From assembly GCA_018692315.1 (NCBI GenBank), contig JABHKC010000228.1, positions 1 to 36,012 of the forward strand: a stretch of 36,012 nt of DNA. Reading direction: 5' to 3'. The position numbers and the translations under genes are program-made. Each line of letters starts with the position of its first letter. Position 1 is the first letter of the stretch. This DNA is from Bacteroidota bacterium (GTDB lineage: Bacteria > Bacteroidota > Bacteroidia > Bacteroidales > JABHKC01). The notes under the pieces are model-generated. The model had not been told where the DNA came from and did no database searches. It saw only the letters and a program-made list of their open reading frames with translations. Below are positions 10,754-35,767 of this stretch, in pieces.

Positions 10754-10894
10754 TCATTTTTTGGTGTTGGTAGCGAATACGGCTATTGAGGCAGCAACCT
10801 GGGTGGCTTGTGTAGTGTAGGCGGCTTTGTCACCAGAACGGAACATGCCATCCAAGATACTGACTTCAAGGCCGTTGTTAAAGCAACTATTCAT
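10754..10894 (-). CDS. Putative 46-residue small protein or gene remnant, GC-rich
   Basis: An ATG at 10894-10892 opens a 46-codon frame to TGA at 10756-10754. The ATG overlaps the last codons and stop of the DUF1016 gene by 8 bp, and the stop lies 4 bp before the DUF6398 start, so the frame exactly fills the gap between two co-directional genes. By my count 66 of 141 bases are G or C (about 47%), far above the surrounding DNA, and it contains none of the A/T runs seen elsewhere. The product starts MNSCFNNGLEVSILDGMFRS and is Ala/Thr-rich with no Lys until its second half. I do not recognise it. It may be a real translationally coupled peptide or the end of a recently acquired, truncated gene. 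Confidence 0.4.
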   Translation of the reverse strand: MNSCFNNGLEVSILDGMFRSGDKAAYTTQATQVAASIAVFATNTKK

Positions 10895-12023
10895 TATTTA
10901 ATTCATCATTACTAAATTCTTTTTCAATATCCTCGATGCTTGGTAGTTCGGATTTCAGCTGATTTGGGATTGCCTTGCTAAATTCGTATTTGGCTATTCC
11001 TATTGGCTGTTTTAGTACGTCCAGTAAATATTCTGCTTCTATTTTGTCGTGTTTTTTGCATAATATCAGCCCAATTGTTGGGTTGTCATTTTCTGTTCTT
11101 AATGTTTTATCTATTGCAGAAATATATAACGCTAATTTTCCTGTATGTTCTGCCTCAAATTCTCTTGCTTTTAGTTCAATTACTACATAACATCTTAACT
11201 TTAAGTGATAGAAAAGCAAGTCAATATACCTGTCTTTTTCGGACAATTGTACTTTGTACTGTCTGCCGACAAAAGCAAATCCTGCCCCCAGTTCTAAGAG
11301 GAATTTGGTTATGTGCTTTGTCAATTGGTTTTCAATGTCTCTTTCGTCTGCTTCTTTTTTAACCGTTAAAATATCGAAAATATATGGGTCTTTTAATGTT
11401 TGATTTGCTAAATTCGACTGTGGTTTTGGTAATGTATTATTGAAATTTGAGATCGCTTTTCCTTGTCTTGAATACAAATTCGTTTCAATTTGTATTTCTA
11501 AAACTGACCTCGACCAACCGTTTATTATGGTTTCATTTATATAAAACAGTGCTTCTGAAATGTCTTTTATTTTTGTTATAATCAATATATTATGACCCCA
11601 CGGAATTTGTGCAACAACTTGTTGCACAAATTCAATTGAGTTAACTTTTTCTGGGAGTTTCTTTTGTGCAACAGATTGTTGCACTTTTTCAAATCGTTCA
11701 TTATAAAACAAATACCACTTTTTCATATAGAACAGGTTTCTACGTGAAAATCCTTTCATTTCAGGAAACTCAGATTGTAAGTCTTTTCCTAATTGTTCAA
11801 CAACAGCATCCCCCCAATTCTTAGTGGATTGTTTTTCGATAATATCTTTTCCTAAGTTCCAATAGAACTCTAACATTTCCGAATTGACAGACAAAGCTGC
11901 CTTAATTTGCAGCTTGTAAACTTTCTCCTTAATGGCTTTAAACCAAATTTTATAATCTTGATTTGAAGACAATTCTATTGACATTAAATATTTTTTATTG
12001 TTTAAAATTAATTGTTGTTTCAT
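10887..12023 (-). CDS. DUF1016 (YhcG-type) PD-(D/E)XK nuclease family protein
   Basis: About 378 residues from the ATG at 12023; a TTG at 12044 and an internal ATG at 11984 are alternative starts. The N-terminal DUF1016_N domain includes IKAALSVNSEMLEFYWNLGK, FPEMKGFSRRNLFYMKKWY and the IPWGHN motif. The C-terminal domain is a PD-(D/E)XK nuclease: FVGRQYKVQLSEKDRYIDLL (with the catalytic Asp) followed by CYVVIELKAREFE (the E-x-K). The family is widespread on mobile and defence islands, and some members have been linked to DNA repair or phage defence; its activity is poorly known. A TAATTTTG (-7-like) lies on the minus strand at 12049-12042, just upstream of the ATG, but lacks a matching TTG, so it may instead be read from the Gabija transcript. 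Family call is firm; role in the island is inference. Confidence 0.87.
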   Translation of the reverse strand: MKQQLILNNKKYLMSIELSSNQDYKIWFKAIKEKVYKLQIKAALSVNSEMLEFYWNLGKDIIEKQSTKNWGDAVVEQLGKDLQSEFPEMKGFSRRNLFYMKKWYLFYNERFEKVQQSVAQKKLPEKVNSIEFVQQVVAQIPWGHNILIITKIKDISEALFYINETIINGWSRSVLEIQIETNLYSRQGKAISNFNNTLPKPQSNLANQTLKDPYIFDILTVKKEADERDIENQLTKHITKFLLELGAGFAFVGRQYKVQLSEKDRYIDLLFYHLKLRCYVVIELKAREFEAEHTGKLALYISAIDKTLRTENDNPTIGLILCKKHDKIEAEYLLDVLKQPIGIAKYEFSKAIPNQLKSELPSIEDIEKEFSNDELNNE

Positions 12024-12055
12024 ATCAGATGTACTATTGAACAAAATTAAATCTA

Positions 12056-12151
12056 TTAGTAATAATAGTCTATTTTTCTACCAAATAATAGAACTTCATC
12101 TGGTTCAATAGTTGGCTTCAATTCATTATTTTTTTGTTCATCAATAATCAT
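12056..12151 (-). CDS. Possible 31-residue small ORF between gajB and the DUF1016 gene
   Basis: An ATG at 12151-12149, 25 bp after the gajB stop, opens 31 codons to TAA at 12058-12056, followed at once by an in-frame TAG. The product begins MIIDEQKNNELKPTIEPDEV and ends with three Tyr residues. No family is recognised. It may be a genuine small protein of the defence operon, the tail of a lost gene, or chance. Confidence 0.25.
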   Translation of the reverse strand: MIIDEQKNNELKPTIEPDEVLLFGRKIDYYY

Positions 12152-12176
12152 TTCGTTGGTTGTAGTTTGTCTTATT

Positions 12177-13883
12177 TTAATTAATTATATCTATAAACAT
12201 ACTTGGATAATAATTGTGTAATATTATCAGGTACTTTTTAGCTCTACTTACCGCAACATAAAACAACTTTCTTCCTTCTTCAATTCCTTCTTCTGTCAAA
12301 TCCTCATATACATAATCATTTCCATCTTTACCCAGATATTTCTGATGTGGTATTTTATGTTCATTCATTTCATTCAATATAACAATATCATATTCCAAGC
12401 CCTTTACCTTGTGTATTGTATTGTTTGTAATTCCGTTTAACCCTGATAATGTTTGCATATACTGACCAATGTTCCAGATGCTTTTCTCTCCATCTTTTAT
12501 CAATTCAATTATTTCTGTAAACGTAGAATGCCGTATTCCAAATAGCTTATCGAAAAGGCGACTAAAATCTTCAAGCCCTTGCGTTATTGGTTTTTCAATA
12601 TCGTTTTCAAGCGTGTAACTTATCAATTCATTTGTTTTATAGTAGCTTGCTTTGTCGGAAAATGATAAATCATTTTCAAGGTAGTGAAGTTCAATATTTC
12701 GCTTTACTTTTCTTAATGCTCGGCTATTTTGGTCATGATAATAGCCTGCCAATGATTTCAAAAGACTGAATGTAGAGTTGTTTGAAATGTATTTATGTGG
12801 TAAAGCTCCTAAACCAACAATATTATATTCATTTCTTAAAATTGTACTTACATTAAATGCGGAATACCAACTTGTTGATAATATTGATATTTCTTTAAGT
12901 TCTACTTTACATTTATCAACTAAATGCTCCATTACTTCTTTTACAATTTCTTCATAATTTGCCTTTTTTGTTTGTATAAATTTGACAGGCAAATCAAGTT
13001 CGTTATTTTCAGAAGAACTGTTATCTATTACAGGATGCTCGTCAAATAGTTTTGTGTAAGTACTTACAATCTTTGCAGAAGAACGATACGCTTTGTCTAA
13101 CTCAACAGGTTCTGCACTAAAATCGACCTTTGCTTTTCCAAAAGAATTTTCAATAGCTCCTGCGAAGGAAAATATCTGTTGTCGCTTATCGCCAACCATA
13201 AAAAAGGTACATGTTCCATTGTTATGTGTCTTTTTTAGAATTTCATATTGAAAAAGGTTTGTATCTTGAAATTCATCTACCAAAATTTCATAGAAGGTAC
13301 TTGCTAATGATTTTAAAATAAACTCATTTTCTGAAATGATTTTGTGTGAGCGAAATAGTATTTCGTTGAAATCAATTACTTTAATACTTTCTTGATATTC
13401 TGAATATCTTCTCGCTACTTCAATTATACTAATTTCATGATTCCAATCTACTGACATGTCAAGATTTCCTTCTATATCTTTCTTGATTTTGTCAATTTCA
13501 TCAAATTTATTTTGTCCAAAGTTTTTCTCTAACTCTATATCTAGGTTGTTCTCAAAAAAGACTTCCTTTTCTTCATAGCTAATAATACGAGGTTTATACC
13601 ACTTATAAATCCAACCATAAGGGCGCAAAATAAACTCTAAACAAAAGCGATGAATTGTACCTATGAAGACATTGTTTTGATTTATTAATCGTGATGATAT
13701 TTCATCGGCTGCTGCATTGGTGTATGTTATCAATGCAATAGTTTTAAATTTTGGCAAATCTTCAAGTTTATACATTGCTCTTGCAACAAGGGTTCTTGTT
13801 TTACCGGAACCTGGTGATGCTGTAACAAGAGTATTGCCCTTAATTTCAAATACTGCTTTTTCTTGTAATTTATTTAAAATCAT
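12177..13883 (-). CDS. gajB: Gabija system helicase GajB (UvrD-like SF1A)
   Basis: A 568-residue UvrD/PcrA-like helicase. Motif I is ASPGSGKT at 22-29, Ia includes TYTNAAADEI at 53-62, motif II is VDEFQDT at 202-208, and motif III is GDKRQQIFSFAGA at 231-243. Then come AYRSS near 265, motif V HKVKGLEYDIVIL at 491-503 and motif VI FYVAVSRAKK at 541-550. All helicase/ATPase motifs are intact. Its start lies 2 bp after the gajA stop, the arrangement of Gabija anti-phage systems, where GajB acts with the GajA nuclease to degrade or nick DNA when nucleotide pools fall during infection. It is somewhat longer than the Bacillus GajB that I recall (about 494 residues). The operon context makes a housekeeping UvrD assignment unlikely. 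Confidence 0.9.
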   Translation of the reverse strand: MILNKLQEKAVFEIKGNTLVTASPGSGKTRTLVARAMYKLEDLPKFKTIALITYTNAAADEISSRLINQNNVFIGTIHRFCLEFILRPYGWIYKWYKPRIISYEEKEVFFENNLDIELEKNFGQNKFDEIDKIKKDIEGNLDMSVDWNHEISIIEVARRYSEYQESIKVIDFNEILFRSHKIISENEFILKSLASTFYEILVDEFQDTNLFQYEILKKTHNNGTCTFFMVGDKRQQIFSFAGAIENSFGKAKVDFSAEPVELDKAYRSSAKIVSTYTKLFDEHPVIDNSSSENNELDLPVKFIQTKKANYEEIVKEVMEHLVDKCKVELKEISILSTSWYSAFNVSTILRNEYNIVGLGALPHKYISNNSTFSLLKSLAGYYHDQNSRALRKVKRNIELHYLENDLSFSDKASYYKTNELISYTLENDIEKPITQGLEDFSRLFDKLFGIRHSTFTEIIELIKDGEKSIWNIGQYMQTLSGLNGITNNTIHKVKGLEYDIVILNEMNEHKIPHQKYLGKDGNDYVYEDLTEEGIEEGRKLFYVAVSRAKKYLIILHNYYPSMFIDIIN

Positions 13884-13885
13884 TA

Positions 13886-15652
13886 TTATACTGTTATATT
13901 GTTATGCTTGAAAATAAATTCAATTGCATCTTGCAAATAACTTGGTATCTCAAAATCTTTATCAATTTGTAATGATAATTCTTGTGCAAAGCGACCTTTT
14001 TTTATTGTTCCATCAATTCGTGAAATAAGTTCTTCTGCCCAATTGTCTGGTTTTGTTGTAACTGTTTCAACTAAATTTTCATAAGATTGTGTATGATTTA
14101 AATTCTCAAAACAAGTTTTCAGGGTTGCAGTATTTTTCTCATAATCTGGAAATAAATCAATTTCTAACGTCTCATTGCCACTAAAAACTTCTATTCTATT
14201 ATCTATTTCATAGCTTTTGGCATTTTCAACCGCTGTTGTATATTCTTCCGTTTCTTTTATTTCTTTTTTATCTCCGTCAATTATAGCACAAACTATTATT
14301 TCAAGTTTGTCTTTTTGAAATAGTTCAAGAAAAGGATCAAAGTAACGACTATGGATTGGTATTACAGATATATTATATTCAGTTAAATCAATTCCGAATT
14401 TTTGTTTTGCTATTGCAGGAATTATAAATTGCTCTGCAACACCTTCAACTAAAATTACTGACGATGCAAAGAAAAGCTCTGAACGAGTTGCATCTAAATA
14501 TCGTTTTAATAACAATTGGTCTCTATTGACTTTTTTATCTTCGCTTTTTTCAACAAATGGGGAAAATGATTTCACCTTTTTTTCAGGAGTGTTAAAAATA
14601 ATATTTAAGTTCTTAAAATTACAATCACTTGCTATGTGAGTAGAATGAGAACTCATAAAAACTTGTGTATTTGATGTATTACTTAGATTTGAAAAAAGTA
14701 ATTTTTGTAATTGAGGATGTAAATGAGCTTCGGGTTCTTCAATGAGCAAAATATTTATTTCATTATCGTCTTGCTCATTAACAAGTCTTGAAAGAAATAA
14801 ACTCAAATATAATAAGTTTTTCTGCCCTAAACCTAACAAATACATTGGTAAGGTTTGTCCTTCTCGTGGATTATAAAACAATTTCAATTGGTCCCATATT
14901 TCTGTATCATAATCCGTTAAAACACCAATTGAAATTGGGAATGAGAAATGCTTACCTGCAATTTCTTTATTTTTTGATTTTATTGTTTCTGCAATTTTGG
15001 GTATAAACTCTAAATCATTTATTTTCTTTGAGGATTTAGTTAAAATTGATTTTACTTTGTCTAATTCACTTTCAGTATCTTCCCTTGATTGACAATATAA
15101 ACTCAACATTGATTTAGAATTCCCAAAAAGTTCCGTATTTATATTTCTAAAATCGGAAATAAAAAATAGATTTATCCCTTCGAGTTCTTTTATTGAAATT
15201 TCATTATTTTGTTTAATAATAGTGTTGAAGTCCGTAGAATTTCCGCTTCCAAAGAGTTTCCATTGAAAATCCTTTACTTCTGCTTTTTCGTATGTTTTTG
15301 TGGTTGACGCAAATTTTGTTCTATGTGCGTAAACATATGTTACCCTGACTGTTTTATCTGAACTTTTTATTGTATGAAGATTAGGAAAGCTTGATAAATT
15401 TTCACCTTTTAGTTCAATACTAATCAGAATATTAGTATTAAAATCTATTTTTTTAAATCCGTGAATATCTTTTTCTTGTAATCTTCTTGAATTATAGGAC
15501 AAATTTTTATCAAAAACTAACCTAATTGCCCAAAATAAATTACTTTTTCCGATATTGTTTTCACCAATAATCGTTTGAAATTCCTTTGTGAAATTAATTG
15601 TAAAATCTTCGAAATTTCTGAAATTCTTTATTGTTATTTTATCAAGATGCAT
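13886..15652 (-). CDS. gajA: Gabija system ATPase-nuclease GajA (OLD family, TOPRIM)
   Basis: About 588 residues from the ATG at 15652 (MHLDKITIKNFRNF, the usual opening of the family). An in-frame ATG at 15688 would add 12 basic residues; the inner start is preferred and has a purine-rich AGAGAAG upstream. The ABC-type ATPase has Walker A GENNIGKSN at 30-38, a signature-like LGLGQKN at 273-279, Walker B ILLIEEPEAHLHP at 301-313 and the H-loop H336 in MSSHSTH. The C-terminal TOPRIM nuclease has E403 in LVEG and D459/D461 in IIDGD. Length and domain order match GajA (about 578 residues in Bacillus). Known GajA is a sequence-specific DNA-nicking endonuclease inhibited by nucleotides and forms a large complex with GajB. 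All visible catalytic residues are present, so the system is probably functional. Confidence 0.9.
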   Translation of the reverse strand: MHLDKITIKNFRNFEDFTINFTKEFQTIIGENNIGKSNLFWAIRLVFDKNLSYNSRRLQEKDIHGFKKIDFNTNILISIELKGENLSSFPNLHTIKSSDKTVRVTYVYAHRTKFASTTKTYEKAEVKDFQWKLFGSGNSTDFNTIIKQNNEISIKELEGINLFFISDFRNINTELFGNSKSMLSLYCQSREDTESELDKVKSILTKSSKKINDLEFIPKIAETIKSKNKEIAGKHFSFPISIGVLTDYDTEIWDQLKLFYNPREGQTLPMYLLGLGQKNLLYLSLFLSRLVNEQDDNEINILLIEEPEAHLHPQLQKLLFSNLSNTSNTQVFMSSHSTHIASDCNFKNLNIIFNTPEKKVKSFSPFVEKSEDKKVNRDQLLLKRYLDATRSELFFASSVILVEGVAEQFIIPAIAKQKFGIDLTEYNISVIPIHSRYFDPFLELFQKDKLEIIVCAIIDGDKKEIKETEEYTTAVENAKSYEIDNRIEVFSGNETLEIDLFPDYEKNTATLKTCFENLNHTQSYENLVETVTTKPDNWAEELISRIDGTIKKGRFAQELSLQIDKDFEIPSYLQDAIEFIFKHNNITV

Positions 15653-15710
15653 AGTTCTTCTCTTTTTCTTAAATTGGGCACAACTCATTTATATATCTAC
15701 CTTTTTCTGA

Positions 15711-26043: not shown

Positions 26044-29000
26044 ATGAACGAATCTATAATAAATTCTCTAATTCATCTTTTTGCTATAATTACTTACGTT
26101 GATATAGAAGATTTTTCGTCGAATTCTCGAGATATTGTAAAATCGTATTTAAACAAACATCTGAGCAAAACACTTGCAGATGAGTATATTGTATTATTCG
26201 ACAATTATTTTGACTTTCATCATAAAGATATTTTTATTTCGAAGAACGAATTGCAGCAAGACAAATATCTTTATTTAGAAAATGTATGTAAGCAAATAAA
26301 CATGGAGCTAAATCGTAAAGAGCGAATGTACGTTTTTCTCCAACTGTGCGAGTTTGTGAACGAAGATTTTGTGAGTTCAGAAAAGGATACCAAAATTCTG
26401 ATTACAGTTGCTAAAAATTTCAATCTGACAGACGAAGAGTATAATGATATTACAAATTTTATTTTCGATAAGGAAGCTAAAAGCCTAAATCCTGAAAAGA
26501 CTCTAATAATCGAAAATAGAAAATCTAGCGAAGATTCAGAAGGGGCATGGTTCGGTTGGAATAAGCCAAACGAAACGGTTAAATCAAAAAATATTTTCAA
26601 CAAAAATATTAAAGGGAAAATTGTTGTTTTACATATCAACAGCATAAATATGTATATTTTTAGGTATTTCGGAAACGAAAGCCTTAATATAGATGGAATT
26701 GCAATTATTGAAAATGTTTTTTTTGTTTTGAATCCAAATTCTGCTATTAGCGGCAAATTATTGGAACCGATTTATTATTCTGAAATTAACAGCAATTTTT
26801 CTCGTTTTGATGAAAAGCATAAAGTTGTTTTTCATGCAAAAAAAATTAAATATAGATCGCTCCAATCGGCGAATGATGTTGCAGCAAACAATATCTGTGG
26901 GCAGTCGGGGCACTTTGTAGGCATTTTCAGTACTGATGATAGCTCAAATGGTAAACTTCTTGATATTATATCCGGACAAGTAAAAGCAGATTCGTCCGAT
27001 ATATTGATTAATAATATTGATTTTCTTAAAAACAGACAAAAATTTGATGGAATTGTTGGGTATATTCAGAAAGATAGTATTCTTATCAATAATTTGAGTG
27101 TCTATCAGAATTTACATTACAATGCAAAACTTTATTTTAATGACTATTCAGATTCCCAAATAAAAGAGCTTGTAGAAAAAATCATTGCTAAAAATAACTT
27201 ACAAGATGTTAGGAATACTATTATTCAAAGCCAGGATTCTGAGCAAATCAGCAAAATTCAAATAAAGAAAATAAACATTGCAATCGAACTGTTGAGGAAA
27301 GCAACTATACTGTTTTTTGAAAATCCTACTTGTGGCCTATCATCAGCGGATTCGGATCAAATAATGCATAGTTTGAAAGAGCAGGCAAATAAAAATACAT
27401 TGATTTTTGCGTCGGTGGAAAGGTGCTCGTCCGATGTTTTCAAATTGTTCGATAAAATTTGCATATTAGATCAAGGTTATCAGATATTTTACGGCACACC
27501 ATCAGAGGCAATCATTTATTTCAAGAAGGCACATACTCACTTGAAAATTACTGAAAGTATTTGCCCTTTTTGTGGGAATATTAATCACAATCAAATTCTT
27601 CAAATTATTGAAGCTAAAATAGTTGATGAGTTTGGAAGATATACTAACCAAAGAAAAATTACAGCAAAAGAATGGCATCAGGCTTACGAAGAAAAGACCA
27701 GAGAAACCAAAAGCCTGAATGTTACGAATGGTTGTAATGACAAGGATTTGGTATTTCCGATTAGGTTTTTTAATACTGTAAATTCATTCAAACAATTTAG
27801 CATATTTTTGAAAAGCAAACTACAAGTATTATTCGCTAACAAAAAATATTTGTTTTTTACATTACTACTATCCCCACTTTTTACATTATTTTTCGCATTT
27901 CTGTCAAAATCGTATGTAGGAGAAAAGTATATCTTAGTCGATAATGCAAGTCTTCCTAATTATTTGCTATTCAGCGTTTTTGTTGCTTTGTTTTTAGGCT
28001 TCTCCATTAGTATTAATGAAATTGTTAAAGATAAATATCTATTGAAGCATTTCGATTTTATCAATCTAAATAAGTTCAGTTATTACAACTCAAAAATTTT
28101 TGTTTTGATACTAATTTCTGCTATTCAGATTCTAATTTATGTATTGTTCGGAAACTTTATTCTTGGAATTGAAGGGATGACTTTGAAGTACTTTATTATT
28201 TTGTTTGCTATATCAGTTTTTGCTGTGATGCTTGGACTTTTATTTTCTCAAATATTTTCATCGAAAAGCGTTTTATTTGTAATTATTCCGGTTTTTTTGG
28301 TGTTTCAATATCTTTTTAGTGGTGTTCCCATAAAATTCGATAATTTCCCTAAATCTCTAAAACATGAAGAATATGTACCATTGATAGCAGATTTTTCTGT
28401 TGCGAGATGGGGATTTGAAGCCTTGGCTGTTGAACAATTTTCTTGGAATAATTATGAGAAGCATTTTTTTGCTGTTGAAAAAGAGATTATTAGTGCCAAT
28501 AATAAATATAAACTCCTTATTCCTAAACTAATTTCATTGTTGGAAGATTGCGAGAAGTATTTTAGGCCGCAATATGATGTGAAAAAGATTGAGAATAATT
28601 TGAATATTCTCCAAAATGAAATTCCATTGCTTTGGACTGATGAAAATAGAAAACCATTTGAATATATTAATCAGCTGAATCTCAAGGATTTTAGCCCGGA
28701 AGTGTCAAATTCGTGCAACAATTATCTGGAGTTTTTGAAATGGCAAAATAAAAGTTTGAAAAAAGCAAAAACGAAAGAATATAACGAAATAAGCTCAAGT
28801 CTGATTAACTCCATAGGGATGTACGAAGTAAATAGGTTAAAATCAAGAAATTACAATCAGGAGCTTGCAAAAATTGTAAGCAATGAGGAAGCAACAGTTT
28901 CGATGATAAATAGCAAAAATCGACTTATTTTAAAAAAGGATCCAATATATTTTGATGCAAGGTCGAAATTTGGAAGGACACATTTCTTTTCACCAAACAA

Positions 29001-29172
29001 AAAAATCTTAGAAAATTATTACAATACATTTCTATTTAATATTTTAATCATTTGTCTTTTTTCATTTCTGGTATATTTGATTTTGCTTTCTGAAATTGTT
29101 CCGAAAACAATTGAGAGGATTTCGAGATTTTATTATTTAGGGAGAGGCTTAGGTTTATCCAATTTTTCATAA
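26044..29172 (+). CDS. TerB-like/ABC-2 exporter fusion with degenerate ATPase motifs
   Basis: A 1042-residue protein. Residues 1-145 are a helical TerB-like domain; about 265-495 is an ABCG/White-type nucleotide-binding domain; a CPFC motif at 507-510 follows; about 600 to the end is an ABC-2 membrane domain with two helix groups (about 610-810 and 1005-1025) flanking a long soluble loop. The ATPase is recognisable but damaged. Walker A, normally GPSGSGKST, reads STDDSSNGK (K304 kept); the signature LSGGQ reads ISKIQ at 402-406; Walker B LDEPT reads FENPT at 425-429; the H-loop His is E459 (ASVER). The Q-loop (GYIQKDS) and the GLSS D-loop region survive. The frame is intact over 3.1 kb, so this looks like a maintained pseudo-ATPase rather than decay. 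Possible role: partner or regulator of an active paralogue. Substrate unknown. Confidence 0.8.
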   Translation: MNESIINSLIHLFAIITYVDIEDFSSNSRDIVKSYLNKHLSKTLADEYIVLFDNYFDFHHKDIFISKNELQQDKYLYLENVCKQINMELNRKERMYVFLQLCEFVNEDFVSSEKDTKILITVAKNFNLTDEEYNDITNFIFDKEAKSLNPEKTLIIENRKSSEDSEGAWFGWNKPNETVKSKNIFNKNIKGKIVVLHINSINMYIFRYFGNESLNIDGIAIIENVFFVLNPNSAISGKLLEPIYYSEINSNFSRFDEKHKVVFHAKKIKYRSLQSANDVAANNICGQSGHFVGIFSTDDSSNGKLLDIISGQVKADSSDILINNIDFLKNRQKFDGIVGYIQKDSILINNLSVYQNLHYNAKLYFNDYSDSQIKELVEKIIAKNNLQDVRNTIIQSQDSEQISKIQIKKINIAIELLRKATILFFENPTCGLSSADSDQIMHSLKEQANKNTLIFASVERCSSDVFKLFDKICILDQGYQIFYGTPSEAIIYFKKAHTHLKITESICPFCGNINHNQILQIIEAKIVDEFGRYTNQRKITAKEWHQAYEEKTRETKSLNVTNGCNDKDLVFPIRFFNTVNSFKQFSIFLKSKLQVLFANKKYLFFTLLLSPLFTLFFAFLSKSYVGEKYILVDNASLPNYLLFSVFVALFLGFSISINEIVKDKYLLKHFDFINLNKFSYYNSKIFVLILISAIQILIYVLFGNFILGIEGMTLKYFIILFAISVFAVMLGLLFSQIFSSKSVLFVIIPVFLVFQYLFSGVPIKFDNFPKSLKHEEYVPLIADFSVARWGFEALAVEQFSWNNYEKHFFAVEKEIISANNKYKLLIPKLISLLEDCEKYFRPQYDVKKIENNLNILQNEIPLLWTDENRKPFEYINQLNLKDFSPEVSNSCNNYLEFLKWQNKSLKKAKTKEYNEISSSLINSIGMYEVNRLKSRNYNQELAKIVSNEEATVSMINSKNRLILKKDPIYFDARSKFGRTHFFSPNKKILENYYNTFLFNILIICLFSFLVYLILLSEIVPKTIERISRFYYLGRGLGLSNFS

Positions 29173-29239: not shown

Positions 29240-29656
29240 TTATATAAATGTTTCTATAAACTGTCTCGCCGTCATTACAGGCAATTTCGATGCTTTAAAG
29301 TCTTTAAGGTTTCTTGTTATTATAATGTCTTGCTTATTTTCTATTGCAGTAAAATATTGAAGTCCATCCTCAAAGTCTGTGAATGAATTGTCATTTAGGG
29401 CTACTCCTATAATCTTGTCATCAAGAGGTAAAATATTGACTATTAGCCTAAGCTTCCTCAATATTTCTTTTGTTTTTTCTGAATTAGTTTGACGCAACAA
29501 TATGTAACTTGTATTAGCGATAGTTAGTGACGAAATATTAAGTTCGATAATTTTTTGGTCTGCCAATGAAAAAAGGTCTGCTGATTCCTCATAAAACAGG
29601 TCTCGTCTTGATAATAAGTATATGACGATATTTGTGTCAATAAAAAGTTTTTTCAT
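29240..29656 (-). CDS. PIN-domain toxin of a VapBC-type pair
   Basis: A 138-residue PIN-domain protein, the usual size for VapC-like toxins. The first acidic residue is D7 in FIDTNIVIYLLS; the central acidic cluster is E96/D97 in FEDGLQYFTA; the C-terminal IITRNLKDF at 112-120 supplies the conserved Asn and Asp. The family cleaves RNA, often tRNA or rRNA, in a Mg2+-dependent way and is held inactive by the cognate antitoxin. Its ATG overlaps the antitoxin stop as ATGA, the standard translationally coupled arrangement. It converges on the ABC gene with a 67 bp gap. Confidence 0.88.
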   Translation of the reverse strand: MKKLFIDTNIVIYLLSRRDLFYEESADLFSLADQKIIELNISSLTIANTSYILLRQTNSEKTKEILRKLRLIVNILPLDDKIIGVALNDNSFTDFEDGLQYFTAIENKQDIIITRNLKDFKASKLPVMTARQFIETFI

Positions 29657-29904
29657 TTGTATTTCTCAATTAAATAGTCGGAATACTCTTTTTTGTAGTC
29701 AAAGTCAGGCGATAGTTTAATAACACCACTCAAACTTTCAACAAGAGGTGTAATTGGATTTTTTTTATCGCTTTCTTTTTCTCTTGTCAAACTGTCCAAA
29801 TAAGATTCAATCATTTTTGATAAACTAATTCTTTGACTTTTAGCATAGATTTTTGCTCTTTCAATTACGCTGTCATTTAGTCTTAATGTCAATTTTGTTT
29901 CCAT
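29653..29904 (-). CDS. Ribbon-helix-helix-like antitoxin (DUF6364 type)
   Basis: About 83 residues from the ATG at 29904. The frame extends to a TTG at 29925, but that codon lies within the promoter -7 box, so the ATG is preferred. The N-terminal half, METKLTLRLNDSVIERAKIY followed by AKSQRISLSKMIESYLDSL, is a ribbon-helix-helix DNA-binding pattern: a beta strand and two helices, the second starting at ISLSKMIE. The C-terminal tail, ending with DYKKEYSDYLIEKYK, is typical of the toxin-binding segment of antitoxins paired with PIN toxins. It overlaps the toxin gene by 4 bp. It is expected to repress its own promoter with the toxin as co-repressor. Confidence 0.85.
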   Translation of the reverse strand: METKLTLRLNDSVIERAKIYAKSQRISLSKMIESYLDSLTREKESDKKNPITPLVESLSGVIKLSPDFDYKKEYSDYLIEKYK

Positions 29905-29922
29905 GTCAATAATATTTACGTG

Positions 29923-29952
29923 CAAATATACAAATAATATACGTCATGACAA
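29923..29952 (-). promoter_or_regulatory. Promoter and candidate operator of the toxin-antitoxin pair
   Basis: Read on the minus strand: TTG at 29952-29950, a 19 bp spacer, then TATATTTG at 29930-29923, the clearest match in this window to the Bacteroidota -33/-7 consensus. The ATG follows 18 bp downstream. The spacer contains the perfect palindrome GTCATGAC (29943-29950), and ATATTT...AAATAT arms (29912-29917, 29924-29929) overlap the -7 box; both are plausible binding sites for the RHH antitoxin. Confidence 0.65.
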
Positions 29953-30758: not shown

Positions 30759-31291
30759 CTTTTTCTTTAATTAGCCAAAACATTAGTATATCCAGAAAAT
30801 TCTGTTTATTACTTTTAAATTCTTAAATATCAATATCATCGAAAGGATTAAGAATTTAATTGAACTTTGTGCTTGATACAGGTGTATATATTTCTTTTGT
30901 TTTGCACAATTCATAGCAAAATTTTGATCGACTTCGTAATAAATTAATATAGGCTTAAAAATACTTTTGCGAAAATAAAATAATTCAGTTAGTTGGCAAA
31001 CTATTTTTGCCTTAAATTATTTCTTTAATAAGCAAATTCTGTATTTTTCTTATATTTGGAGATAAACAGATTTTCATTAATAGCCAAAATTAATTAATTT
31101 TGAGCTATGATGAGAAAAATTATAAACGTAGAAACAGGGGAGCTTAAAATTGGAGGAGTTAGCCAAATACTTGTATCTAAATCTATTGATAAAATGCAGT
31201 AACTTCTTCAACAAAAAGCTACTGTTGTATCAGACATTCGTTTTTGTCTTGTAGGATCATGTAATGTATTGAAAAAAAAATATTTATAATT
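30759..31291. other. Upstream region of the hybrid kinase, 533 bp, with a possible broken gene
   Basis: Divergent spacer between 30758 (-) and 31292 (+). It holds TACTTTTG at 30962-30969 and TATATTTG at 31051-31058, both -7-like on the plus strand but without well-placed TTG boxes, a small hairpin GGCAAA-CTATT-TTTGCC at 30995-31011, and the short interrupted frame described separately at 31107-31289. Confidence 0.5.
31107..31289 (+). pseudogene. Short reading frame interrupted by one TAA, directly upstream of the hybrid kinase
   Basis: An ATG-ATG at 31107 opens 31 codons (starting MMRKIINVETGELKIGGVSQ) to a TAA at 31200-31202. The same frame then continues open for 28 more codons (LLQQKATVVSDIRFCLVGSC...) to TAA at 31287-31289, two bases before the kinase ATG. 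Both halves read like coding sequence and together would be a 60-residue protein immediately upstream of the kinase. No family is recognised. It may be a small gene broken by a nonsense mutation, an active 31-residue gene, or chance. Confidence 0.3.
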
Positions 31292-34200
31292 ATGAATTAC
31301 AAATTTGATGAAATATTCGACATTGAAGAATTGAGAAATATTTGCGAAAGTTTCACTGAATTAACAGGAACTACTACTTCTATACTCGATTTAGATAACA
31401 ATGTGCTTATTGCAACGGGCTGGCAACCAATATGCACTCAGTTTCACAGGATAAATAATCATTCAAGTAAACGTTGTACTGAAAGCAATGCCGAACTTAC
31501 CAAGCAATTAAAAGAAGGTAAGAAGTATAGTTTGTATAAATGTAAAAACGGGTTGATGGATGTTGCCATGACAATTATGGTAAGGAACACGCATGTTGGC
31601 AATTTCTTAACCGGTCAATTTCTAACTGAGAAGCCAGATGTTGATTTTTTCAGAAAACAGGCTGAAAACTTTGGTTTCAACGAACATAAATATCTGGCTG
31701 CACTTGAAAATGTTCCTGTTTACAATGAAGAAAAAATAAAAAAAACCATTCAGTTTCTGGTTGCACTTACTGAAACCATTGGAAACATTGGTGCCAGGAA
31801 TTTAGAAAATATTGAAATTAACAAGCAGCTTGAAACTGATAAGAAAAATATAAGCGAAGCCAATAAGGAATTGCAAATAGCTCAAAAAACACTAAAAGAA
31901 AACGAAGAGAAGTTCCGCAATATCACTGAACAAGTTACAGAAATGATCTTCCTGACCGACGACAAAAGCACGATAAAATACATTTCCCCTTCTTCAAATT
32001 CTATTTTTGGTTATACTCCCCAGGAAATGGAAGGCAAGTTATTTATGAAATTCTTAAAGAAAACAGAAATTCCAAAAGCGATGAAGGAATTCATAAAAAC
32101 TTTTATGAAAGGGACTCCTACTATAAATCTTGAATTATTAATGAAACATAAAAATGGAAACTATTTTGTAGGAGAACTTACAGTCAGGAAGTATAATTCG
32201 GATAAACTCAAAGGAACAATAGGGCTTATTCGTAACATAAGCGAAAAAAAGAAAACTGAAGAGGAATTGCTTTTCAAAGAGAGGGAATTTAGGACTCTCA
32301 CAGAAAATATGCCTGGAATTATTTTTAGGGTATTTTGTAAAGAAGACAACAAAATGGTTTTCTATAATGATATGCTACTGGAATTCACAGGATATAAGTC
32401 TGAAGAGTTGATGAGAGGAAATGTATGTTCACTATTTCCTAGAATCCATCCAGAAGATCAAGCTTACATTGAAAAAGATGTAGCTAAGGCAATAAGCAAA
32501 AAAGCATCATTCAATCTTGAATATAGGTTCAAGCATAAAAACGGTGAAATTCGTCATTTTTCTGAAATTGGAAACCCAATTTTCGATACGGACGATACGC
32601 TGCTGTATCTCGAGGGAATGATCTTTGACATAACTGAAAGGAAGAAAGCAGAGGAAGCTCATAGAAATGAGAAGAGATTTATAGAGAAGGCTATTGATAG
32701 TTTACCAGGGATTTTCTACCTCTTTAATTCTAAAGGGAAATTTCTACGATGGAATCAAAACTTCGAAATAATCTCTGAATATTCTGCAGAAGAGATAGTC
32801 AAGATGCATCCACTTGACTTTTTCTCAACCGAAGATAAGGAACTTGTTTCGGAAAGGATCAAGGAAACTTTTGAAAAAGGGGAATCATCTGTAGAAGCTC
32901 ACTGGCTTTCGAAGAATGGTAATAAAATTCTTTACTATTTAACTGGCACGCTGATAGAGTTTGATGGGATGTATTGTCTGGTGGGAATGGGTATTGATAT
33001 CAGCGAGCGTAATCAAGCCGAGGAGAAAATAAAGGACAAAAATGAGCAATTCGAAACTATCATCAAAGGAGCTAATCTTGGTTGGTGGGATTGGAATATT
33101 CCTTCGGGAGATAAAATTTATAATGATATACTTGTCGAAAATCTCGGATATAAATTAAGTGAAATAAAACCCCACATAAAATGGTGGGAAGATAAAATAC
33201 ATCCCGATGATGCAGAACAAGTTTCTATTGATTTACAAGAACACTTTAAAGGTAAGACCGAATTTTATGAGAATAAACACCGTCTAAGAACCAAAACCGG
33301 ACAATGGAAATGGTTTCTTGATTACGGAAAAGTTGTAGAAAGAGATAGTAAAGGCAATTCAATTAGAATGATAGGTACGCTCAGGGATATTGATTTTGAA
33401 GAAAGAGCCAAAGAAAAAATAAATACCAGTTTGCAACAAATTAAAGTAATTAATGCAAACACTCCGAATATAATTTGGAAATCGGATATAGATAAAGATG
33501 GGAATTTTAAAGATACGTATATTTCAGAGGCCGTGGATCAATTTCTTGCATTACCAAAAGGAAGTGTTGGTAATTCCTGGGGTAAGTATTATTCTTACAT
33601 TTTACCTAAATATTTACCTTTAATAAATGACATATTTAAATATGGTATCGAGAATCCCAACAAGTCGATTTCGTTCGATTATGAAGTAAAAAAAGCAGAT
33701 GGTAAACTGGCATTTTTCTCATCAACAGGCAGGGCAGTTTTTGAAAATAAGAAATTAACTGTTTACGGATCTACTATTGATATTACGGAGAAGAAACAAA
33801 ATGAACTCGAATTATTAAAAGCCAAAGAAAAAGCCGAAGAAAGCGAAGAACAATTAAAACGAATTGCTAATAATTTTGTTGACGGTATGATATATCAGGT
33901 AGCAATGCTTGATGAAAATAAACGGAAATTTAATTATGTAAGTGATGCTGTAAGCAAACTATATGGCTGCACTGCTGAGCAAGCACAAGAAAATCCTGAT
34001 TTGATTTATGGAAAATTGCATCCGGAAGATGTAGCTGATCTTATTAAGGCTGAAAAAGATGCATTAAAAAATATGTCCATTTTCAAAACAACATGCCGAA
34101 TTATAAATCCTGATGGGAGTATTAGATGGTCTTACCTTGTATCTCAACCTAGAATTATTGATGGCATTATTTGTTGGGATGGAATAGAAGTGGATATCAC

Positions 34201-35767
34201 AAAGCAAAAGCAGGCGGAGAATGAATTGAAGGAAGCTAAAGAAAAGACAGAAAAAAATGAACAAAAACTAAAGGACGCACAATCAGTAGCAAAAGTAGGA
34301 AGCTGGGAAACCAATTTACTTACTATGGAAGTAGAATGGTCTGACGAAACTTACAAAATTTTTGAACTAGACAAAGATCAATTCCAAGACACCCATGTTT
34401 CGTTTTTAGACTATGTGCACCCCAATGATATTGAAAGAATAGAAGAGGTGTTTGTAAAATCTTTTTCGTCAAAAGATTACAACAGTGTGCAGCATCGCAT
34501 TATTACCCCATCGGGTAGATTTAAACATGTGGAAGAGCGTTGGATTACCATACACGATAGCAATAATAAACCTTTAACTTCATTTGGCACTTGTCGTGAT
34601 ATTACAAAACAAAAGCAGATTGAAAATGAATTGAATGAAGCCAAAGAAAAAGCAGAAGAAAGTGATCGTCTAAAATCAGCATTCCTGGCTAATATGAGCC
34701 ACGAGATACGTACACCTATGAATGGTATTCTGGGCTTTACAGATTTATTAAAAGAACCTGATTTAAGTGGCGAAGAACGGGATAAGTTTTTAGAAATAAT
34801 AGGGAAAAGTGGGAATCGTATGCTGAATACGGTTAATGACATCATTGACATTTCAAAAATTGATGCCGGCCAGGTAGAAATATCAAATACCGATCTTAAC
34901 ATTAATGAAGAAATAGAAAACCAATTTGAATTTTTTGATAAGGAGGCTACTGCCAAAGGAATAGAATTAAGGCTTATAAATAAGCTGCCACGGCAGAGCA
35001 TTATTATTTCAGATAAAGTGAAAATAAACTCAATTATTTCTAATCTGATTAAAAATGCTATTAAGTACACTGATAAGGGGAGTATAGAAATTCTATGCAA
35101 TAAAAAAGGATTGAAACTTGAATTTAAAATCACAGATACCGGAATAGGAATCCCCGAAGATCGAATTAATTCCATTTTTAATCGTTTTGAACAGGCAGAT
35201 ATTGATGACACAAGAGCTTTTGAAGGTTCGGGTCTTGGACTTGCTATTTCAAAAGCCTATATTGAGATATTGGGTGGTAAGATTGGTGTTGAATCAAAAC
35301 ATGGAAAAGGCTCAACATTCTATTTTACTCTACCCTGGATCGAAAAACAAGTAAAGCCCGAACTCATAAAGGAGAATGAAGTATTAAACAAAGCTGGTGA
35401 TAATCAAATTAACATCTTAATAGCCGAAGATGACGATATTAGTTTTAAACATCTCGAAATTATCCTTAATAATATTGCAAAAAGCATAACAAGAACAGTA
35501 AGTGGAAAAGAAGCCATTGAGTATATGAAGAACAATAAAAATATTGATTTGGTGCTTATGGATGTTAAAATGCCGGTAATGGATGGTTATGAGGCTACGA
35601 AAGAAATCCGTAAATTCAATAAAGATATAATTATTATTGCACAAACAGCTTACGCACTTTTTGGCGACAATGAAAAAGCAATCGCAGCTGGTTGCAATGA
35701 TTATATTTCTAAACCGATAAACAGGAAACTACTGCTTGAATTGATAAATAGACATCAGAAAAAATAA
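31292..35767 (+). CDS. Hybrid sensor histidine kinase: PocR - 7 x PAS - HisKA - HATPase - receiver
   Basis: A 1491-residue soluble sensor kinase with no membrane segment. Residues 5-175 are a PocR-type ligand-binding domain (TSILDLDNNVLIATGWQPIC, RCTESN with C62, YKCKNGLMD with C84, GNFLTGQF). A coiled coil at about 172-205 leads to seven PAS domains at about 205-320, 330-450, 460-573, 585-702, 710-835, 850-972 and 995-1105, several ending in the PAC pattern DITERKKAE. HisKA is at about 1126-1190 with H1137 in NMSHEIRTPMNG; the ATPase has the N-box NLIKNAIKYT at 1251-1260 and DTGIGIP at 1282-1288; the receiver is at about 1374-1488 with D1424 in LMDVKMP. All phosphorelay residues are present. 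No output regulator is encoded beside it. The signal is unknown; PocR domains bind small carbon compounds in known cases. Confidence 0.93.
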   Translation: MNYKFDEIFDIEELRNICESFTELTGTTTSILDLDNNVLIATGWQPICTQFHRINNHSSKRCTESNAELTKQLKEGKKYSLYKCKNGLMDVAMTIMVRNTHVGNFLTGQFLTEKPDVDFFRKQAENFGFNEHKYLAALENVPVYNEEKIKKTIQFLVALTETIGNIGARNLENIEINKQLETDKKNISEANKELQIAQKTLKENEEKFRNITEQVTEMIFLTDDKSTIKYISPSSNSIFGYTPQEMEGKLFMKFLKKTEIPKAMKEFIKTFMKGTPTINLELLMKHKNGNYFVGELTVRKYNSDKLKGTIGLIRNISEKKKTEEELLFKEREFRTLTENMPGIIFRVFCKEDNKMVFYNDMLLEFTGYKSEELMRGNVCSLFPRIHPEDQAYIEKDVAKAISKKASFNLEYRFKHKNGEIRHFSEIGNPIFDTDDTLLYLEGMIFDITERKKAEEAHRNEKRFIEKAIDSLPGIFYLFNSKGKFLRWNQNFEIISEYSAEEIVKMHPLDFFSTEDKELVSERIKETFEKGESSVEAHWLSKNGNKILYYLTGTLIEFDGMYCLVGMGIDISERNQAEEKIKDKNEQFETIIKGANLGWWDWNIPSGDKIYNDILVENLGYKLSEIKPHIKWWEDKIHPDDAEQVSIDLQEHFKGKTEFYENKHRLRTKTGQWKWFLDYGKVVERDSKGNSIRMIGTLRDIDFEERAKEKINTSLQQIKVINANTPNIIWKSDIDKDGNFKDTYISEAVDQFLALPKGSVGNSWGKYYSYILPKYLPLINDIFKYGIENPNKSISFDYEVKKADGKLAFFSSTGRAVFENKKLTVYGSTIDITEKKQNELELLKAKEKAEESEEQLKRIANNFVDGMIYQVAMLDENKRKFNYVSDAVSKLYGCTAEQAQENPDLIYGKLHPEDVADLIKAEKDALKNMSIFKTTCRIINPDGSIRWSYLVSQPRIIDGIICWDGIEVDITKQKQAENELKEAKEKTEKNEQKLKDAQSVAKVGSWETNLLTMEVEWSDETYKIFELDKDQFQDTHVSFLDYVHPNDIERIEEVFVKSFSSKDYNSVQHRIITPSGRFKHVEERWITIHDSNNKPLTSFGTCRDITKQKQIENELNEAKEKAEESDRLKSAFLANMSHEIRTPMNGILGFTDLLKEPDLSGEERDKFLEIIGKSGNRMLNTVNDIIDISKIDAGQVEISNTDLNINEEIENQFEFFDKEATAKGIELRLINKLPRQSIIISDKVKINSIISNLIKNAIKYTDKGSIEILCNKKGLKLEFKITDTGIGIPEDRINSIFNRFEQADIDDTRAFEGSGLGLAISKAYIEILGGKIGVESKHGKGSTFYFTLPWIEKQVKPELIKENEVLNKAGDNQINILIAEDDDISFKHLEIILNNIAKSITRTVSGKEAIEYMKNNKNIDLVLMDVKMPVMDGYEATKEIRKFNKDIIIIAQTAYALFGDNEKAIAAGCNDYISKPINRKLLLELINRHQKK

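Follow-up and report, generated by a model that had tools for sequence, protein, structure and literature searches.

Can an exporter gene lose every catalytic motif of its motor and still be kept as an open gene? This question is raised by the open reading frame (ORF) at positions 26044-29172 (+) of contig JABHKC010000228.1 (contig C228 of the Bacteroidota bacterium assembly GCA_018692315.1), the 36,012 nt of which are referred to as the window; the ORF and its protein are referred to as Q. By its fold, Q is an ATP-binding cassette (ABC) half-transporter of the ABCG type, i.e., a nucleotide-binding domain (NBD) followed by a transmembrane domain (TMD), which is preceded by putative TerB-like and FHA-like modules. 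Its ATPase motifs are lost, its frame is open and its accelerated divergence is limited to the NBD and the TMD. With moderate confidence, we regard Q as a catalytically dead and probably non-transporting pseudo-transporter that may have been retained to act as a scaffold or sensor in the membrane.

Loss of the ATPase motifs

The 168 homologues to which Q was compared came from 60 genomes of the same order, from 393 genomes drawn evenly across this order, and from a genome-contig scan. Its identity to this Bacteroidales TerB-FHA-ABCG family is about 30-40% along the full length. Residues G296, G301, K302, T304, Q343, G404, G405, D426, E427, and H459 are unchanged in every covering homologue, and variation in the motif columns is restricted to the signature Gln (Glu in two homologues) and to Ser or Thr at position 303. 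Q carries the substitutions G296S, G301S, K302N, T304K, Q343K, G404K, G405I, D426E, E427N, and H459E. Instead of the Walker A consensus G296-x-S-G-x-G301-K302-[ST]303-T304 it reads S-T-D-D-S-S-N-G-K, with Asn in the column of the catalytic Lys, and the Lys of this motif falls two positions further on. The signature is SKIQ compared to SGGQ, Walker B is EN compared to DE, and the H-loop His459 is replaced by Glu. The first-pass annotation, made from the sequence of the window alone, had described Walker A, signature, Walker B, catalytic Glu, and H-loop as deviating, and the comparison with the 168 homologues confirms this. It had also listed the Q-loop as kept, which does not hold: Q reads GYIQKDS compared to GFVPQDD, with Lys in column 343 and the Gln one residue too early. 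The NBD retains the Pro that follows Walker B, the D-loop (GLSSxDS), Ser403 of the signature, and many core residues.

Judged by N302, E426, N427, K404 I405, K343, and E459, Q lacks what defines an active ABC ATPase and would be unable to bind or hydrolyse ATP in the normal way. Having lost the nucleotide contacts as well as R669 and E670 in the coupling helix, Q presumably neither binds ATP normally nor drives its membrane part, and most likely it no longer pumps. This motif loss is not recent, since 15 of the 31 tabulated lost sites require at least two base changes. Simple decay with a frameshift history had been named as a possible refutation; in none of the alternative frames at these motifs does a canonical version appear, and a compensated frameshift as the origin of the odd motifs is thus ruled out.

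The loss is not shared by relatives, as the motifs are canonical in 168 of 168 homologues where covered, and no degenerate relative was found among ~850 genomes and 80 further loci, a sample in which the taxonomic family of the source is represented by its own genome only. The first genome-contig scan revealed no close orthologue. A second contig scan, based on an alignment of the C-terminal half, yielded 80 loci with a best identity of 44% over that half, and the recovered genes are canonical; the patterns used in it (SAEEII[KR]D and the like) are absent from Q, so that degenerate relatives could escape it. In the 393 order-level and 395 class-level genomes no match was closer than 746 bits. 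The canonical paralogue that the first-pass annotation suggested looking for does exist: the source genome, which comprises 4.98 Mb in 248 contigs and is 99.6% complete, contains one further family copy, situated on contig C70 (G000:C70), which is 35% identical to Q and has canonical motifs.

Decay or selection

A gene in this state may simply be decaying slowly, having lost transport and drifting with a frame that is open by chance or due to weak residual selection. The loss of every motif, the single occurrence, a very long branch (2.24 for full-length Q compared to a median of 0.53), and the absence of the conserved partner genes from its vicinity, unlike in many relatives, would all agree with slow decay. 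The frame itself speaks against it. As had been stated before, it is intact over 1042 codons, with zero internal stops. When the coding sequence of C70 was allowed to drift neutrally in simulation, under an AT-rich mutation spectrum, ~10, ~20, and ~39 stop events arose at 10%, 20%, and 35% changed codons, respectively, and none of the 60 runs at 10% gave fewer than 3; at least 10 stops would therefore be expected under decay. The multiple base changes required at half of the tabulated lost sites point to an old state as well.

Uniform drift furthermore predicts uniform loss, whereas the observed loss is concentrated in the NBD and the TMD. Considering family columns conserved to at least 98%, Q keeps 32/58 in the NBD and 15/25 in the TMD, but 8/8 in the CxxC linker and 7/7 in the domain between TM5 and TM6. 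For NBD plus TMD this amounts to 47/83 compared to 18/19 elsewhere (Fisher p 0.0013), and at a 90% cut to 79/140 compared to 42/47 (p 3e-5). Branch lengths computed per region on a fixed tree are in good agreement. The ratio of the end branch of Q to the rest of the tree is 0.27 for the NBD, 0.24 for the TMD, and 0.13 for TM6, compared to 0.04 for the TerB-like, 0.06 for the FHA-like, 0.09 for the CxxC, and 0.08 for the extracytoplasmic (TM5-TM6) region; relative to the median end branch, the NBD is ~9-fold and the TMD ~8-fold longer, and the TerB-like, FHA-like, CxxC, and TM5-TM6 parts 1.7- to 3-fold. With and without the fast regions Q is placed in clade C. After exclusion of NBD and TMD its end branch is 1.3 and not flagged as long, inside clade C in the starred set of 10 rows. 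The C70 paralogue, a member of clade B, has an ordinary branch of 0.53, so that fast evolution is not a general property of the lineage.

Since the loss is confined in this way, we do not consider Q a case of simple decay, and slow decay appears unlikely to us. The proposal of the first-pass annotation that a non-hydrolysing role is under selection is supported as the better reading by the open frame (~10-39 stops expected), by the restriction of the acceleration to NBD and TMD, and by the ordinary placement and branch obtained without them. Several observations weigh against this reading. Q is a single gene in a single genome for which no close orthologue was found, so that its maintenance over evolutionary time is presumed. 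The variable regions are near saturation, which masks some acceleration there, and the canonical partner genes do not adjoin Q. Missing neighbours are no strict criterion, as about half of clade C also lacks them.

Domain layout, gene company, and a candidate role

The features of Q are listed in Table 1. In Q, Pfam ABC_tran scores 41 bits and ABC2_membrane 47 bits, both above the cut-offs, and the best sequence relatives with solved structures are ABCG2 (top, E 4e-27), ABCG5, and yeast PDR pumps. The AlphaFold2 model of Q, built on a family alignment of 59 sequences, reached a predicted local distance difference test score (pLDDT) of 83 and a predicted template modelling score of 0.75, and its residues 257-1024 superpose on ABCG5/G8 and ABCG2 with Z ~30. 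The ABCG-like layout noted earlier is thereby borne out. The part preceding the NBD, also modelled alone (pLDDT 87), shows a helical domain followed by a beta-sandwich. The best structural match of the former is 2h5n (P. gingivalis PG1108), with a Z of 8.3 that is low for a helical domain; the latter matches almost exclusively FHA domains. Pfam TerB has no match in Q itself. Both N-terminal modules are regarded as putative TerB-like and FHA-like domains.

Table 1. Positions of Q and its parts in the window
Feature	Position	Strand	Basis
ABCG-type pseudo-transporter Q, whole ORF, 1042 aa	26044..29172	+	Aligns full length to canonical paralogue and homologues
Putative TerB-like helical domain, residues 1-141	26044..26466	+	Pfam TerB matches N-termini of 38/58 aligned members; model pLDDT ~87; 2h5n, Z 8.3 over 120 residues
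Putative FHA-like beta-sandwich, residues 150-255	26491..26808	+	FHA domains make up almost all VIA-align matches, with Z 6-7.4 over 70-92 residues; Foldseek best E only 0.018, weak
Degenerate NBD, residues 263-492	26830..27519	+	Pfam; motif alignment; model 257-1024 on ABCG5/ABCG2
Degenerate Walker A, STDDSSNGK replacing GxSGxGKST	26929..26955	+	Homologue alignment
Q-loop Gln to Lys343	27070..27072	+	Gln in 166/166 homologues covering the column
Degenerate signature, ISKIQ replacing ISGGQ	27247..27261	+	Homologue alignment
Degenerate Walker B/catalytic Glu, FENPT replacing xDEPT	27316..27330	+	Homologue alignment
H-loop His to Glu459	27418..27420	+	His in 168/168 homologues
CxxCG linker joining NBD to TMD, residues 493-585	27520..27798	+	8/8 invariant residues kept, including C507 and C510
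ABC-2 TMD, residues 586-800	27799..28443	+	Pfam; R591, K596, R669, and E670, invariants of the connecting and coupling helices, lost
TM5-TM6 domain, large and helical, presumably extracytoplasmic, residues 801-990	28444..29013	+	Near-ordinary rate; all invariant residues kept
Last transmembrane helix (TM6) and tail	29014..29169	+	Predicted model

The membrane domain, described as retained in the first-pass annotation, is indeed recognised by Pfam, but it is less retained than stated, as it evolves fast and has lost coupling invariants. It is conceivable that the TMD has acquired a new job and that Q acts as an ATP-independent channel, carrier, or lipid-handling protein. The Pfam match and the high confidence with which the TMD was modelled would be compatible with this, and its changes could reflect adaptation rather than relaxation. 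Positive evidence for such a role was not obtained, the fast TMD has lost family-invariant residues, and a single sequence cannot reveal a new conserved pattern. We consider this explanation quite improbable.

In clade A, genes for a TPR-SpoIIE phosphatase, DUF6272, SiaC, the ABC protein, and a lipoprotein occur in that order in 16-19 of 19 loci, and the lipoprotein gene is followed by a gene encoding a small secreted protein in 17 of 19. The lipoprotein of these loci (L037-L116, e.g., L102, L071) has no Pfam match. In a clade B variant, SiaC and DUF6272 are situated on the opposite strand, and about half of clade C possesses the lipoprotein gene. DUF6272 corresponds to the SiaB family. The clade A cluster has the look of a phospho-regulated Bacteroidales export system, on which no paper was found. 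In P. aeruginosa, SiaA and SiaB form a phosphatase/kinase pair acting on threonine 68 of SiaC (PMC7647112).

Neither the lipoprotein gene nor SiaB/SiaC/SpoIIE genes were found around Q in the window, and copies are located elsewhere in the genome: the SiaC-DUF6272 pair on C153, the genes for the lipoprotein and the small secreted protein on C231, and the canonical ABC gene on C70. Both pairs (L231:7966-8919 and L232:7519-8941) lie away from ABC genes. A third ABC copy beside the C231 lipoprotein gene was considered and rejected, as the contig end contains no ABC start in the frames read. Proteins of 240 aa composed of TerB and FHA-like parts alone are encoded near the ABC gene at L207:3739-4467 and ten other loci (cluster 6). 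Due to these stand-alone copies near 11 family loci, the TerB plus FHA-like part can exist without a motor.

Returning to the reading of Q as a kept scaffold or sensor, Q would be a former member of the TerB-FHA-NBD-TMD exporter family of Bacteroidales. The parts still working, and accounting for its retention, would be the CxxC linker and the two N-terminal modules in the cytosol (TerB-like and FHA-like), connected across the membrane to the large extracytoplasmic domain; as a scaffold or sensor, Q may bind partners, possibly those of its canonical relatives. It is tempting to speculate that an exporter has turned into a motor-free membrane signalling scaffold that still engages the SiaB/SiaC phospho-switch of active relatives, but this extension is doubtful, and a connection of Q with the Sia genes is speculative.

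Just downstream of Q, a PIN-domain protein and a DUF6364 partner form a toxin-antitoxin-like pair (29240-29925, -), followed by a 1491-aa PocR-PAS-histidine kinase-receiver hybrid protein (31292-35767, +). A short open stretch with a stop directly before the kinase gene (31080-31290) possibly represents a small gene or else a remnant. At 10887-15688 (-), a YhcG/DUF1016 PDDEXK nuclease gene is adjacent to two genes that, judged by eye, appear to encode an AAA/TOPRIM (OLD-like) protein and a UvrD-like helicase; together they may form a defence island. Upstream of Q, the search for a Bacteroidetes-type promoter yielded two -7-like sites and no -33 element.

Comparison with known systems

The closest system is the Bacteroidales TerB-FHA-ABCG family itself (G000:C70; L117-L219), on which a literature search of partial coverage revealed no paper. 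Its length, domain order, and CxxC linker are those of Q, but Q keeps none of its canonical ATPase motifs, and in contrast to many members Q is not located next to the conserved lipoprotein or SiaB/SiaC/SpoIIE genes. The mycobacterial Rv1747 is likewise an exporter-type ABC protein joined to an FHA module, which is associated with the kinase PknF and linked to Ser/Thr phosphorylation (PMC3908365, PMC5549992); the FHA-like module next to Sia genes recalls this pairing (PMC3908365). Rv1747 differs from Q in being treated as an active transporter, and it is not known to have a TerB-like domain.

ABCG2, the best sequence match among solved structures, has the same NBD-TMD half-transporter layout, to which Q adds the TerB/FHA-like modules and the large TM5-TM6 domain while lacking any consensus motif. 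ABCG5, the nearest solved fold, shares degenerate NBD motifs with Q, as ABCG8 and PatAB do. Half-transporters of the ABCG type form dimers, and pairs with degenerate subunits have been described (ABCG5/G8, PMC7756502; PatAB, PMC9541285). Q could thus be the silent subunit of a heterodimer with C70, the sole further member of the family in this genome, which would supply any ATPase activity and be tuned or restrained by Q; the retained Ser403 and D-loop would suit such a partner. In the known pairs, the faults are distributed such that they fall on one composite site: Walker A of ABCG8 and the signature of ABCG5 (PMC7756502), or Walker B and H-loop of PatA with the signature of PatB (PMC9541285). 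Q, by contrast, combines defects in Walker A, Walker B, H-loop, and signature within a single chain. The Walker motifs of C70 would face SKIQ of Q and the dead Walker motifs of Q would face SGGQ of C70, so that neither site would be consensus, which makes a classical heterodimer unlikely. The TMD, the expected dimer interface, has diverged as fast as the NBD, the coupling helix has diverged too, and Q and C70 are separated both by clade (C and B) and by contig. The heterodimer partner is thus the weakest of the three roles that the first-pass annotation had proposed, and a structural scaffold or ligand sensor fits better, although the function itself is deduced.

Known degenerate ABC sites come in pairs that keep one working site. 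If the scaffold or sensor reading is true, Q represents a natural experiment on the use of an ABC protein without ATP, and the TerB/FHA and extracytoplasmic parts would be functional on their own in a widespread and apparently unstudied exporter family of the Bacteroidales.
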